Source: a virus
Direction: 5' to 3' (one strand)
DNA: 28,353 nucleotides
Virus record (IMG/VR): IMGVR_UViG_3300046167_000335
Location: 1-28,353 of that record
The translations under genes and the position numbers were made by a program. Below the pieces are notes generated by a model. The model had not been told where the DNA came from. It searched no databases and worked only from the letters and a program-made list of their open reading frames with translations. The stretch's first letter is position 1, and each line of letters starts with the position of its first letter. Below, in pieces: positions 12,862 to 18,300 of the stretch.

Positions 12862-13006
12862 GGATCTACCCAACAACTGTCAGGTGACAGTCATCGTCTC
12901 AGACCTCTACGAAGAGGAGCCAGACCCCAACCATCCAGCAGAGATGCCAGAGGGCCAGGATAGGGAGAATATCTGGCTGGTTAGCAAGGCTGGTCAAACT
13001 CCATAA
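12842..13006 (+). CDS. Small acidic hypothetical protein (54 aa), last gene of the rightward operon
   Basis: GTG start at 12842, overlapping the preceding gene by 20 nt. The product begins VPTVLIEDLPNNCQVTVIVS and continues with a very acidic stretch (DLYEEEPDPNHPAEMPEG). Its last 26 nt overlap the 3' end of the oppositely oriented methyltransferase gene. The beta-like start and length fit a small phage protein, but I recognise no family. It could be spurious, though it fills the gap well. Confidence 0.5.
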   Translation: MPTVLIEDLPNNCQVTVIVSDLYEEEPDPNHPAEMPEGQDRENIWLVSKAGQTP

Positions 13007-13898
13007 CGATCCGGCCAATCTCTGCAACCAGGGGTGGAACTACGGCGTTTCCGAGGGCTTTAAGTCTGTGTGACCGATTGGGAACCCCATTAGCCACTCG
13101 ACCCACGTTGGGTTCAGGGAGCCAGATTGGGGCGGTTTGTTGTCCTCTTGTGTCGCCACTGATGTCAGGGTTGGCGTGTTCCGGTTGTATTCCGATGGGT
13201 ACGCCCCCTCTTTGCTGTTGTGAGCTGTTGGTGTGGGGTACAATTTCACCATCGAGCCTAGGTCTTTTTGGATGGTTGCGCCGCTGGGACGCCTTTCCCC
13301 TTTCATCGCTTTGATCGCCATATTTACCGACGATCCTCTCTCCCCCAAACCCGCGTTCGGAGTCGGCCACCAACTGCCCGGGTCTTTCTGCATCGAAGGG
13401 GACATCTGGTTTGCTGTTGCTGTTGGAGTGTGCAACAACCCAGACTCTGTCTCGCCTATGGTGGGCGTCGACGGCACAAGCTGGAAGTACAAACGTCCAG
13501 CAGGTGTAGCCTTCCCCTTCCAAGTCAGATAGCACTTTGTCGAGTTCCATCGGGATGATTCCAGAAACATTCTCGCCAATGACCCATCTGGGAGCCACTT
13601 CGCGTATGACGCGCAGCATTTCCGGCCAGAGTGCTCTGTCATCTTCTGCGCCGAGTTGCTTCCCGGCAACACTGAATGGCTGACAAGGGAATCCCCCGCA
13701 AACAAGGTCAACTGTTCCTCGGTACTCATATCCGTTCAACTCCGTGATGTCTGAATGTATAGGGAGGGTGGGCCAATGCTGGGCCAGTATCTTTTGGCAG
13801 AAAGGGTTTTGCTCGCAGAAGGCGACAGTTTCCATACCTGCTGATTCTAGCCCAATGGAGAATCCGCCAATGCCAGAGAATAGATCAAGGACGCGCAC
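12981..13898 (-). CDS. dcm: DNA (cytosine-5) methyltransferase
   Basis: GTG start. 305 aa with the C5-methyltransferase motifs in order: I DLFSGIGGFSIGLE (AdoMet binding, residues 5-18), IV GGFPCQPFSVAG (catalytic Cys72), VI ENVSG (109-113), VIII HHRRDRVWVVAH (about 145-157) and X ALGNAVVPP (about 280-288). The region between VIII and X, where the target-recognition domain normally lies, is polar and low in hydrophobic residues (about 158-265). That is odd, and is explained if the DNA is also constrained by a second frame (13040-13729). It would methylate cytosines in a short recognition site, protecting phage DNA from restriction or marking it. Its start overlaps the upstream small exported-protein gene. 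Confidence 0.93.
   Translation of the reverse strand: MRVLDLFSGIGGFSIGLESAGMETVAFCEQNPFCQKILAQHWPTLPIHSDITELNGYEYRGTVDLVCGGFPCQPFSVAGKQLGAEDDRALWPEMLRVIREVAPRWVIGENVSGIIPMELDKVLSDLEGEGYTCWTFVLPACAVDAHHRRDRVWVVAHSNSNSKPDVPFDAERPGQLVADSERGFGGERIVGKYGDQSDERGKASQRRNHPKRPRLDGEIVPHTNSSQQQRGGVPIGIQPEHANPDISGDTRGQQTAPIWLPEPNVGRVANGVPNRSHRLKALGNAVVPPLVAEIGRIVMEFDQPC
13040..13729 (-). CDS. Long overlapping frame inside the methyltransferase gene (229 codons), possible dual coding
   Basis: Same strand, shifted one base relative to dcm, lying within its codons ~57-286. The ATG product opens MSTEEQLTLFAGDSLVSHSV and contains LTWKGKATPAGRLYFQLVPS. It has three xxPTP elements (LHTPTATA, WWPTPNAG, LYPTPTAH) and ends LNPTWVEWLMGFPIGHTDLK. 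I recall very similar proteins (LTLFAxDS ... TPAGR ... PTPTA ... LNPxWVEWLMGFPxGWT) annotated in phages and prophages, often as "methyltransferase". The framework therefore recurs in nature, though I cannot check here whether always as an overlap. Either both frames are translated, or one is an alternative descendant of the target-recognition region. The function of this product is unknown. Confidence 0.55.
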   Translation of the reverse strand: MSTEEQLTLFAGDSLVSHSVLPGSNSAQKMTEHSGRKCCASYAKWLPDGSLARMFLESSRWNSTKCYLTWKGKATPAGRLYFQLVPSTPTIGETESGLLHTPTATANQMSPSMQKDPGSWWPTPNAGLGERGSSVNMAIKAMKGERRPSGATIQKDLGSMVKLYPTPTAHNSKEGAYPSEYNRNTPTLTSVATQEDNKPPQSGSLNPTWVEWLMGFPIGHTDLKPSETP

Positions 13899-14897: not shown

Positions 14898-15364
14898 AGT
14901 GGGACGCGATCAAAGGTTTAGTGGGCGCAGTAGCACCGACCATAGGAAGCGCCATAGGAGGCCCAGTAGGGGCCGGAGCGGGGAAAATACTCGCACAGGT
15001 ACTTGGGGTACCAGCAGAGCCACAAGCCGTTCAGAAGGCGCTCAGTGAAGCCTCACCGGAACAATTGGCAGAGATCAAGAAAGCCGATCTTGCCTACAAA
15101 ACCCGTCTTGCAGAGTTAGAGGTGGATATCTTCGAGCTTGAGACTGCCGACATCCAAGACGCCAGAAAGAGTGGCGACTGGACGCCCAAGGTTCTCGCAT
15201 TGTTAGCCTTCCTGTTCTTCGGTGGGTATGTGACCCTTGTTACCGTTCAACCGCCAGATGCCAACTCAGAAGCGGTGATAAACCTTGTCCTAGGATACCT
15301 GGGAGGGGTGGTATCAGCGGTGGTGTCATTCTATTTCGGCGCAAGCCACAAGGCAGACAAGTGA
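14894..15364 (+). CDS. Three-TM holin (GTA_holin_3TM type)
   Basis: 156 aa. A small-residue hydrophobic N-terminus (GLVGAVAPTIGSAIGGPVGA) is followed by a charged helical middle (EQLAEIKKADLAYKTRLAEL) and two clear membrane helices (VLALLAFLFFGGYVTLVTV; VLGYLGGVVSAVVSFYFGAS), ending in a short basic tail. This is the layout of the gene-transfer-agent/phage three-TM holin family, which forms membrane lesions at lysis. ATG overlaps the DUF5675 stop (ATGA). Placing holin and lysin directly before the terminase genes is common in gammaproteobacterial phages. Confidence 0.85.
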   Translation: MKWDAIKGLVGAVAPTIGSAIGGPVGAGAGKILAQVLGVPAEPQAVQKALSEASPEQLAEIKKADLAYKTRLAELEVDIFELETADIQDARKSGDWTPKVLALLAFLFFGGYVTLVTVQPPDANSEAVINLVLGYLGGVVSAVVSFYFGASHKADK

Positions 15365-15702
15365 GCAGACCCTTGATTGAAATAGACTGGGATCAGGTTG
15401 ATGAGATGTGCCGCATCCACTGTACGGGGGAGGAGCAGGCAGCGGTTCTAGGTATCGACTATGACACCCTGAATAGAGCCTGTAAGAGAGAGCAGGGGCT
15501 AAGTTTTACGGAGTATTTCAAACAAAAGAGCGCATCAGGGAAAATGAGCCTAAGACGTAGGCAATACACCAAGGCGATGGACGGTGACAACACTCAGTTG
15601 ATATGGCTCGGCAAGAACTGGTTAGGACAGTCAGACCAGCCAGAAGTAGAAGCACAAGACCTGCCACCAATCGTTATCGAGAGGGCGGGTGAGGCTCACT
15701 AA
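15361..15702 (+). CDS. terS: Terminase small subunit
   Basis: 113 aa, GTG start overlapping the holin stop. An N-terminal HTH (WDQVDEMCRIHCTGEEQAAV followed by LGIDYDTLNRACKREQGL) binds DNA. The second half includes KMSLRRRQYTKAMDGDNTQL then IWLGKNWLGQSDQ, the common C-terminal motif of small terminases in this gene position. It recognises the packaging site and delivers DNA to the large subunit, whose start it overlaps by 14 nt. Confidence 0.85.
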   Translation: MSRPLIEIDWDQVDEMCRIHCTGEEQAAVLGIDYDTLNRACKREQGLSFTEYFKQKSASGKMSLRRRQYTKAMDGDNTQLIWLGKNWLGQSDQPEVEAQDLPPIVIERAGEAH

Positions 15703-16915
15703 GCCACAAGATGACATCTTCTTCAGTGACTCACGGTTCAGGGCGGTGGTCGCTGGTAGACGATTTGGGAAGACGTTTCTGTCTACCCATGAGCTTCTTC
15801 GTGCTGCCCTAGAAGGCAAGAACAGGAACTGCTGGTATGTCGCGCCGACCTACAAGGCTGCAAAAGAGATAGCCTGGGACATGCTGAACGAGGCTTTGCC
15901 TGCTGGGTATATCAGTAAGCGGAACGAAACCGCACTATCGCTGACGCTGAAGAATGGTTCTACCATATCCCTCAAAGGGGCAGAGAAGCCTGACAACCTC
16001 AGAGGGAGGGCGTTGGACTTTGTTGTTCTGGACGAGTTCGCAGATATGCGGAAAGAAGCGTGGTACGAAGTGCTGCGGCCCAGTCTGTCGGATCGTCATT
16101 CTGGAGATAATCCGACGCGGGCACTGTTCATTGGAACACCAAAGGGGCGCAACCATTTCTATGACATCTGGACGCGAGGCGTCGATGAGGAGGAGGGCTG
16201 GGAAGCCTTCCAGTATACGACCATCGAGGGCGGTAATGTTGATGAAGCTGAGATCGAGGCAGCGCGGAATGACCTAGACGAAAGGACATTCAGCCAAGAG
16301 TATCAAGCCAAGTTCGTTAACTACTCCGGCATCATCTACTACGCATTCAGCCGAGAAGAGAGCGTGCGGAAGGGTTACATGAACGACCAGCTACATATCG
16401 GCATGGACTTTAACCTAGACCCTATGAGCGCAGCTGTGTGCGTGAGGGAAGCGGATACGATCCAAGTGATCGACGAGATCGTTATTTATGGATCGAACAC
16501 CGATGAGATGGTGGACGAGATCAAGCAACGGTATGGTGACAGGCAAATCACTATCTACCCTGACCCAGCTAGTAAACAACGTAAGACCAGCGCGGGAGGG
16601 AGGACAGACCTATCAATCCTCCAGAACGCAGGGTTTGCGGTAAAGGTGCGGAACAGTCACCCAGCAATCAGGGACAGAATCAACAGCGTGAACAGCAGGC
16701 TACGCTCCACCAGTGGGGTGCGGTCTTTGTTTATTGACCCCAAGTGCAAGCAGACCATCGCTTCCCTTGAACGACAGACCTACAAGGAAGGCACTAGCCA
16801 ACCCAACAAAGATGACGGCTATGACCACATGAATGACGCGCTAGGGTATTTGGTCGAGTACCTATACCCGATTCGTAAGCAAAGAGAAATTGAACAACCA
16901 ACGAGGTGGAGCTAG
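15689..16915 (+). CDS. terL: Terminase large subunit
   Basis: 408 aa, GTG start. ATPase: Walker A VVAGRRFGKT (residues 20-29), Walker B LDFVVLDEFADM (about 110-121), coupling motif FIGTPKGRNHFYDIW (about 147-161). Nuclease (RNase H fold): first acidic motif LHIGMDFNLDPMSAAV (about 235-250), IDEIVIYGSNTDEM, IYPDPAS, and the last acidic motif DDGYDHMNDALGYLVEYL near the end. All key residues are present and the frame is intact. Drives DNA into the prohead and cuts it. Confidence 0.96.
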   Translation: MRLTKPQDDIFFSDSRFRAVVAGRRFGKTFLSTHELLRAALEGKNRNCWYVAPTYKAAKEIAWDMLNEALPAGYISKRNETALSLTLKNGSTISLKGAEKPDNLRGRALDFVVLDEFADMRKEAWYEVLRPSLSDRHSGDNPTRALFIGTPKGRNHFYDIWTRGVDEEEGWEAFQYTTIEGGNVDEAEIEAARNDLDERTFSQEYQAKFVNYSGIIYYAFSREESVRKGYMNDQLHIGMDFNLDPMSAAVCVREADTIQVIDEIVIYGSNTDEMVDEIKQRYGDRQITIYPDPASKQRKTSAGGRTDLSILQNAGFAVKVRNSHPAIRDRINSVNSRLRSTSGVRSLFIDPKCKQTIASLERQTYKEGTSQPNKDDGYDHMNDALGYLVEYLYPIRKQREIEQPTRWS

Positions 16916-18300
16916 TGGCATCTAACATCGAATATCAGCATCCGGACTACGACGCCAGTGAGAATAGGTGGGAGCTTTATGTTCGCTCATACCTTGGGGG
17001 TGAGGAGTATCAGGCAGGCAACTACCTGACTGGCTACTTGAACGAGTCAGAGAACGAGTATGCCCGACGCATACAGTTGACCCCGATTGATAACCACTGC
17101 CGCAACGTGGTGCATATCTACAGTTCGTTCCTGTGGCGCACTCCCCCTGTTCGCGTGTTCAACTCTTTAGCAGGCAACCCAGCGCTAGAGGCGATGATAA
17201 GAGATGCCGACTTGGACGGCGCAAGCCTCAACAGTTTTATGAAGCAGGCCCAGATATGGTCATCGGTTTATGGTCACGTCTGGATTCTTGTGGACAAGCC
17301 AGAGTCCAACGCGCAGACGAGAGCGGAGGAGCTAGACCAAGACATACGGCCCTATCTGTCGCTGTTTACCCCTGAAAACGTCTTCGACTGGAAGTGGGAG
17401 CGCACGCCCTCTGGACGCTTTGAACTCACCTACCTGAAGCTCAGGGAAGCGGTAGACCGTGAGAACGCCACAACCAAGGTGAGTTACTACCGCATCTGGC
17501 GCAAAGGACACGATCCAGCAGTGGAAGTCTGACGGCGACAAGGAGCAGATGGTTAGCGAGATCGACAACCCACTGGGCAAGATTCCAGCGGTCTATCTAC
17601 CGGCCCAACGCAGTGTGACCCGTGGTGTGGGGGTGAGTGACCTGTCAGACATCGCCTACATGCAGAAGGCTATCTATAGCGAGCTTTCAGAGATCGAGCA
17701 GCTAATCAGGATCAGCAACCACCCCTCTCTGGTTAAGACCTACGACACAGATGCGAGCGCGGGAGCGGGTTCTGTTATCAACGTGCCAGATGACGCAGGC
17801 AGATACGATGGCTCCATTCCTGCTTGCAACCTTCTGGTCAAAACATCGACAGCATCAGGGAGTCCATCAAAGACAAGGTGGAAGCTATCAACCGCATGGC
17901 CCAGATGGGCGCTGTACGCGGAACAGATGCGAAGACGATGTCAGGCATTGCCATGCAGACCGAGTTCCAAATGCTCAACGCTAAGCTGTCAGAGAAAGCC
18001 GACCTGCTGGAGTTAGCCGAGGAACATATGTGGACGTACTTCTGCAACTGGCTAGACGTAACGCCAGACGTTGAGGTGTTCTATCCTGATTCCTTCGACA
18101 TCCGCGACTACGACAAAGAGCTTGAGTTCTTGCAGAAGATGAAAGCCAGCGGCGTGAGGTCAGTGACATTAGCGCAAGAGCTAGACAAGCAGATAGCCGA
18201 CCTCGCCCTTGATGATGACAAGTTGGCGCAATCCCATGTGGAGATTGAGGGATCAGCGCAGGTTCTAGGGCAGTTCCCAGTGGTGGATAACAACCAGTAA
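16915..18300 (+). CDS. Portal protein (interrupted by frame errors)
   Basis: Three overlapping frames join to about 461 aa. An insertion at CC 17515-17516 links GHD to QWKSDGDKEQMVSEI. Near 17823 a missing T, or two extra bases, links DDAGRYDGSIP to LQPSGQNIDSIRESIK. Start GTG 16915 behind GGTGGAG. Features: QHPDYDASENRWELYVRSYL, PIDNHCRNVVHIYSSFLWRT (entry to the crown/stem), a long helix QKAIYSELSEIEQLIRISNH, and RGTDAKTMSGIAMQTEFQML. These are typical of DUF4055/SPP1-type portals. Forms the dodecameric DNA gate. Position between TerL and the gpF-like gene supports this. Confidence 0.88.

Follow-up and report, generated by a model that had tools for sequence, protein, structure and literature searches.

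A reading frame nested in a phage cytosine methyltransferase gene

The DNA analysed here (the window) spans all 28,353 bases of an IMG/VR virus record and carries lambda-like tail genes, a terminase, a portal, Erf and NinG. On its minus strand, positions 12981–13898 (frame 1; 305 aa, GTG start) encode the predicted catalytic subunit, alpha, of a C5 methyltransferase (MTase), and nested wholly within this gene, in register +1 relative to it, lies a second open frame (frame 2; 13040–13729, minus strand; 229 aa, ATG start) encoding the putative specificity subunit, beta. The first-pass annotation had described a 229-codon frame inside the MTase gene, shifted by one base; the coordinates hold, and the strand, unstated there, is minus. 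The motifs that it had listed were also seen, namely PCQPFS, ENV and GNAVVPP in frame 1 and PTPxA repeats and LNPTWVEWLMGFPIGHTDLK in frame 2, the latter peptide being read from the same piece of DNA as EPNVGRVANGVPNRSHRLKA of frame 1. Of the flanking genes that were tested in the window, none was recognised as a restriction endonuclease, and for this reason the MTase looks like an orphan; scans for promoters and terminators near the gene yielded no signal above chance. Just past the MTase, genes for the small and large terminase subunits and the portal are located on the plus strand (15361–17532). The large subunit, at 408 aa, and the portal, at 208 aa, are shorter than is usual in their families, so that reading frames in this stretch may be broken.

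Alpha matched PF00145 over residues 1–171 only (E = 2.5e-45) and TIGR00675 over residues 3–164 (E = 2.9e-34), with HhaI and HaeIII as its best matches, and frame 1 was also matched by phrog_363 (PHROGs v4, label 'DNA methyltransferase'; E = 2.7e-79). As in the large chain of C5 MTases (PF00145), motifs I–VIII are present, including PCQ and ENV; alpha also carries motif X and is without motif IX. The catalytic cysteine lies in motif IV, PCQPFS (13671–13688, minus strand), a sequence that is near-invariant in our alignment of alpha chains (A2), and motif X, RLKALGNAVVPPLVAEIGRIV (13005–13067, minus strand), was assigned from the sequence and the same alignment. Motifs IX and X, which in C5 MTases follow the target recognition domain (TRD) in one chain, are thus divided between the frames, X being in frame 1 and IX in frame 2. 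In an AF2 model of alpha, residues 1–168 and 283–303 folded confidently and residues 169–281 had low confidence, which is what a linker would give. In line with this, residues 162–252 (13143–13415, minus strand), which lie over the DNA of the beta modules, have the character of a polar linker evolving near-neutrally, as judged from the omega values of the two frames (see below) and the low AF2 confidence.

Frame 2 had no match in Pfam or NCBIfam, and when it was compared with PDB sequences, singly or as a profile, only chance matches came up. AF2 modelled beta alone with low confidence (pLDDT 57, pTM 0.23) and a Foldseek search with this model was empty; neither the model nor the Foldseek result was counted as evidence of fold. 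The best-predicted part was a beta-hairpin, CYLTWKGKATPAGRLYFQL (13469–13531, minus strand; pLDDT 82–91 over residues 70–90), with strands at residues 67–74 and 80–87. The conserved end of beta, LNPxWVEWLMGFPxGWTDL, is spaced like C5 motif IX, for which the corresponding string in HhaI is LTPRECARVMGYPDSY; in the window this motif reads LNPTWVEWLMGFPIGHTDL (13061–13117, minus strand) and is near-invariant in the alignment of beta chains (A1). The same DNA encodes the alpha segment EPNVGRVANGVPNRSH (13068–13115, minus strand), near-invariant in alignment A2. A possible ribosome-binding site of beta, GGAG (13740–13743, minus strand), was read from the sequence 10 nt before the ATG, and Shine-Dalgarno (SD)-like words were found ahead of the beta start in 73% of 253 loci, as compared to 37% after synonymous resampling of frame 1.

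The nested pair recurs in phages and bacteria

A search with frame 2 yielded 80 viral loci with the MTase in the same register in all, a set that was chosen by frame 2. The reverse search, performed with the MTase protein alone, provides an unbiased test of the pairing: all 71 viral loci matched frame 2 at +1, down to 34% identity, with frame 1 interrupted in a few (L121, L134, L139) and two loci being end fragments. Complete nested pairs were found in 146 of 160 further loci (80 viral loci collected by the MTase profile and 80 bacterial loci by the frame-2 profile), so that the comparison of homologues proposed in the first-pass annotation shows the two frames open together. Its expectation that the pairing may recur in phages was likewise borne out by phrog_1008 (PHROGs v4, label 'DNA methyltransferase'), a family matched by all 74 homologues and by frame 2 itself (E = 6.7e-39), and by Paenibacillus larvae phages, in which both frames of the pair are annotated 'DNA-cytosine methyltransferase'. 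Hosts of pair-bearing phages include Paenibacillus, Lacticaseibacillus, Salmonella, Pseudomonas, Stenotrophomonas, Synechococcus and Acinetobacter. Whole genomes contain it only sparsely: of 200 from one phylum, 2 have the family, and one of these is the centre genome itself. A literature search found no paper describing the nested phage family, the review and phage papers retrieved being without mention of it.

In a minority of loci frame 1 contains a stop or a frameshift, and some copies are therefore broken or differently organised. Five loci (L121, L134, L204, L185 and L286) have a single in-frame stop in the frame-1 linker, with frame 2 intact and motif X on a short frame-1 ORF of its own. 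In two loci of different origin, 6 nt are inserted between P and C of the catalytic PCQ (TAGCTG at L167:2223–2228 and TGACTG at L259:5033–5038), creating a frame-1 stop (GGFP*LCQP) and leaving frame 2 open. In L297, L302, L314, L139 and L236, indels redistribute alpha and beta segments among the frames, for example with motifs I–VIII, a frame-2-type TRD and IX in one ORF and X in another; these loci are either natural fusions or decaying copies. A Roseovarius MAG (OX638333.1; L274–L276, L278, L279) contains five matching nested-pair copies at separate chromosome sites, suggesting repeated prophages or an assembly effect, and in L118 (70–2670) the frame-1 open frame runs about 470 codons upstream of the MTase start, a possible fusion of the MTase to another protein.

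Substitution patterns support dual coding

A conserved MTase with biased codon use might by itself keep the +1 frame open, in which case frame 2 would be a by-product without function. The N-terminal part of frame 2 does lie over the most conserved MTase motifs, so that some similarity comes free, and even the phage ShiLan, whose enzyme is a single chain, has a 153-codon +1 frame (L344:1585–2043) that matches positions 13–125 of the frame-2 profile (i-E = 2e-11). Against this reading, when the window was synonymously shuffled 2000 times with frame-1 protein and codon usage kept, frame 2 acquired a mean of 5.6 stops and was stop-free in none of the shuffles, and 257 non-identical complete pairs had no frame-2 stops where 6.2 per locus were expected; these pairs had to match both profiles, a requirement of which the 71/71 result above is independent. 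Moreover, mycobacteriophage and Tsukamurella relatives keep frame 1 but are without the N-terminal frame-2 match. Codon choice also serves frame 2: of 185 loci, 179 use GGT for the G of VGR (22% elsewhere), and the codon for the R of GRVA has A as its last base in 223 of 243, in both cases as the frame-2 residues need.

The substitution analysis was based on 33 independent close pairs, and omega was obtained by sorting changes by their effect in both frames, the values being simple counts with bootstrap and not model fits. Difference rates at frame-1 positions 1, 2 and 3 were 0.075, 0.030 and 0.303 before the overlap, 0.070, 0.031 and 0.115 in the catalytic overlap, 0.294, 0.126 and 0.158 in the TRD stretch, 0.086, 0.025 and 0.071 in IX/X, and 0.070, 0.058 and 0.243 after the overlap. 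Suppression of frame-1 synonymous sites, which the first-pass annotation had suggested measuring, is confined to the overlap (third positions 0.303 ahead of it versus 0.115 in its catalytic part) and argues against a by-product. Within the TRD stretch, frame-1 position 1, the wobble position of frame 2, changes fastest. Frame-1 omega was 0.08 before the overlap, 0.19 in the core, 0.32 in IX/X and 0.22 after the overlap, and rose to 0.83–1.05 in the TRD stretch (for 0.83, 95% interval 0.65–1.03). Frame-2 omega was 0.24–0.46 in the core, 0.17–0.22 in the TRD stretch (dNN/dNS 95% interval 0.12–0.23) and 0.19–0.21 in IX/X, versus 0.68 and 1.23 in the non-overlapping flank controls. Both frames are therefore constrained in IX/X and in the catalytic core, where alpha residues 58–161 share their DNA with the N-terminal ~100 residues of beta (13416–13727, minus strand; region B), and the TRD stretch is constrained essentially in frame 2 only. 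The pattern is the same in the nearest relatives of the window: as compared to L087, which has the same modules, 26, 4 and 3 changes were counted at frame-1 positions 1, 2 and 3 in the TRD stretch, and 4, 1 and 17 before the overlap.

A frame 2 that is constrained where frame 1 is not leaves the by-product reading already refuted by the substitution pattern, and we regard it as extremely improbable. The sequence comparisons thus support true dual coding, as the first-pass annotation had proposed, with both frames open in relatives and constrained in their substitutions. Its view that the frame-1 target recognition region is shaped by the second frame agrees with the near-neutral evolution of frame 1 there, and recognition is therefore probably coded by frame 2.

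Frame 2 corresponds to the probable specificity half of the enzyme

In ShiLan gp70, Phinally gp5 and a Tsukamurella plasmid enzyme, motifs I–VIII, PTPxA modules, IX and X are present in one chain, in which motifs I–VIII match the frame-1 profile and the modules and IX match the frame-2 profile (i-E = 5e-13 for ShiLan). These single-chain relatives, which occur in actinobacterial phages, were reached via the mycobacteriophage beta; no fused single-chain form turned up when the fetched loci were scanned with a regular expression. Other relatives are split differently. In L271 and L272, alpha ends after motif VIII and beta comprises the TRD modules, IX, EPxxxRVAxGVxxRxxR and X in one frame, so that peptides encoded by the same DNA in the window are here found next to each other, the segment corresponding to EPNVGRVANGVPNRSH being separate and following motif IX. 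The motif IX segment precedes motif X in one chain in these two loci as well as in ShiLan and Phinally. In mycobacteriophage pairs (Alma gp83/gp82, HamSlice), beta ends with IX and X and overlaps alpha at the join only, and in Arthrobacter phage PhluffyCoco genes 42 and 43, as annotated, follow one another with no overlap. Pfam gave no match on the beta chains carrying IX and X. As ShiLan keeps the +1 frame described above, single-chain forms may have arisen from nested ones by frameshift, or the reverse. The single-chain gp50 of Propionibacterium phage B22 (L348:587–2686) contains an intein-like insertion (GGSPCFVAGT...VVHNCQDLS) in motif IV, at the P|C site where L167 and L259 have theirs.

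Because it is homologous to the corresponding part of the single-chain relatives and of the rearranged loci, we identify frame 2 as the probable TRD and motif IX half of a C5 MTase, that is, its specificity (beta) subunit. The first-pass annotation had offered three roles for the second product, and the homology to the single-chain TRD and motif IX favours the methyltransferase partner over the inhibitor and the anti-restriction factor. A separate effector of the latter kinds, or a regulatory protein, that overlaps the MTase by chance would be compatible with the lack of a Pfam family for beta, and nested phage genes often encode small effectors. It is nevertheless very unlikely, given that in single-chain relatives the catalytic domain shares its chain with the frame-2 modules and motif IX, and that alpha, lacking motif IX and with a near-neutral TRD stretch of its own, therefore needs a partner.

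Programmed frameshifting could also yield a single polypeptide, with motifs I–VIII read in frame 1, the TRD and IX in frame 2 and X in frame 1 again. Exactly this order is present in one frame in the single-chain relatives, and L297 and L314 hold motifs I–VIII, a frame-2-type TRD and IX in one ORF. Such a product would however require two shifts in opposite directions, and frame 2 possesses a start of its own, ahead of which SD-like sequence is enriched. The ~60 N-terminal residues of beta, which frameshifting would make superfluous, also fall where frame 2 is under constraint; in addition, alpha and beta exist as separate or partly overlapping genes in relatives, and M.EcoHK31I was reported as two polypeptides (PMC3404938). 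We consider frameshifting improbable, if less so than an unrelated effector, and favour two separately translated subunits.

Putative recognition modules in beta

The variable part of beta consists of 1–5 units of ~38 aa each, opening with W/L/Y-x-T-P. Three are present in the window, all on the minus strand: module 1, LHTPTATANQMSPSMQKDPGSW (13370–13435), a variant recognised by eye that the module-cutting script missed, and modules 2, WPTPNAGLGE...SMVKL (13241–13369), and 3, YPTPTAHNSKEG...QSGS (13118–13240), which module segmentation assigned to clusters 13 and 0, respectively. Across loci the segmentation gave 163 clusters and 173 architectures. Among loci whose catalytic domains are <60% identical, 133 module pairs were at least 75% alike, 95 of which sit in another slot or array size. 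Swappable recognition modules would be expected to show this pattern, and the shuffling of beta modules between loci suggests, without proving it, several targets per enzyme. A stronger form of this idea, for which we see an even chance, is that beta strings together exchangeable TRD modules with one DNA target apiece, and that phages alter and accumulate methylation specificities by recombining this one frame, over which alpha is a near-neutral linker. If true, a long nested gene would be a freely evolving specificity cassette and not a compromise between two constrained proteins.

Comparison with known enzymes

In M.EcoHK31I, the frame of the small subunit lies within the gene of the large one, and methylation requires both subunits. 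Lee, Kam and Shaw reportedly described the enzyme as a two-polypeptide C5 MTase in 1995. This nesting is matched in the window and the great majority of its relatives, in which beta lies at +1 inside alpha. M.EcoHK31I, a C5 MTase (YGGCCR) from one E. coli strain, carries motifs I–VIII and X in the large and IX in the small polypeptide (PMC3404938), as does the window enzyme, the comparison being with the published description. Its predicted TRD was placed in the large subunit (PMC3404938), whereas the window TRD is assigned to beta and is constrained only in frame 2; the window enzyme further differs in being an apparent phage orphan with a module array. M.AquI (CYCGRG) also consists of two polypeptides, with motifs IX and X both in the small subunit (PMC3404938). 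It resembles the window enzyme as a split C5 MTase with motif IX in the smaller subunit but differs in the position of motif X, which in the window is in alpha. AquI-like relatives, such as the mycobacteriophage pair Alma gp83/gp82, do exist, and motifs IX and X are together in the small subunit in L271, L272, L317 and L318. The multispecific MTases of SPbeta, phi3T and rho11s are phage orphan C5 enzymes with several short tandem TRD modules in a single chain; tandem putative modules and an apparent phage orphan enzyme are likewise found here, with the modules in a nested second frame. PHROGs matches the two frames with phrog_363 and phrog_1008 and is silent both on their shared DNA and on phrog_1008 being the specificity half. 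A two-chain C5 MTase whose small subunit holds motif IX and no other motif is thus already known (M.EcoHK31I), and what is new is the TRD in beta, the module arrays, the neutral alpha linker and the wide spread in phages.

A proposed two-subunit enzyme and its significance

Taken at the sequence level, the window very probably encodes both subunits of one orphan phage C5 MTase, with alpha catalytic and beta choosing the site. One transcript would give rise to alpha from the GTG and to beta from the internal ATG with GGAG upstream. Alpha would contribute AdoMet binding, the catalytic cysteine and the last helix (motif X), beta would contribute target recognition and motif IX, and the two would assemble into a complete enzyme that methylates the phage genome and shields it from host restriction; translation of beta, two-chain assembly, methylation and protection are what we infer from the arrangement.

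In prokaryotes and phages, there are few long genes nested on the same strand for which both products have evidence. In the present case a role, if a predicted one, can be assigned to the second product, and the pair is present in hundreds of phage and prophage loci, with single-chain, side-by-side, partly overlapping and fully nested forms open to comparison, which makes the pair a benchmark for overlapping-gene detection. Two families now labelled 'DNA methyltransferase' could be named as catalytic and specificity subunits, and the finding suggests that the TRD of M.EcoHK31I-like enzymes should be sought in the small subunit. The family would also offer a direct test of fast evolution of a nested frame where the other frame tolerates change.
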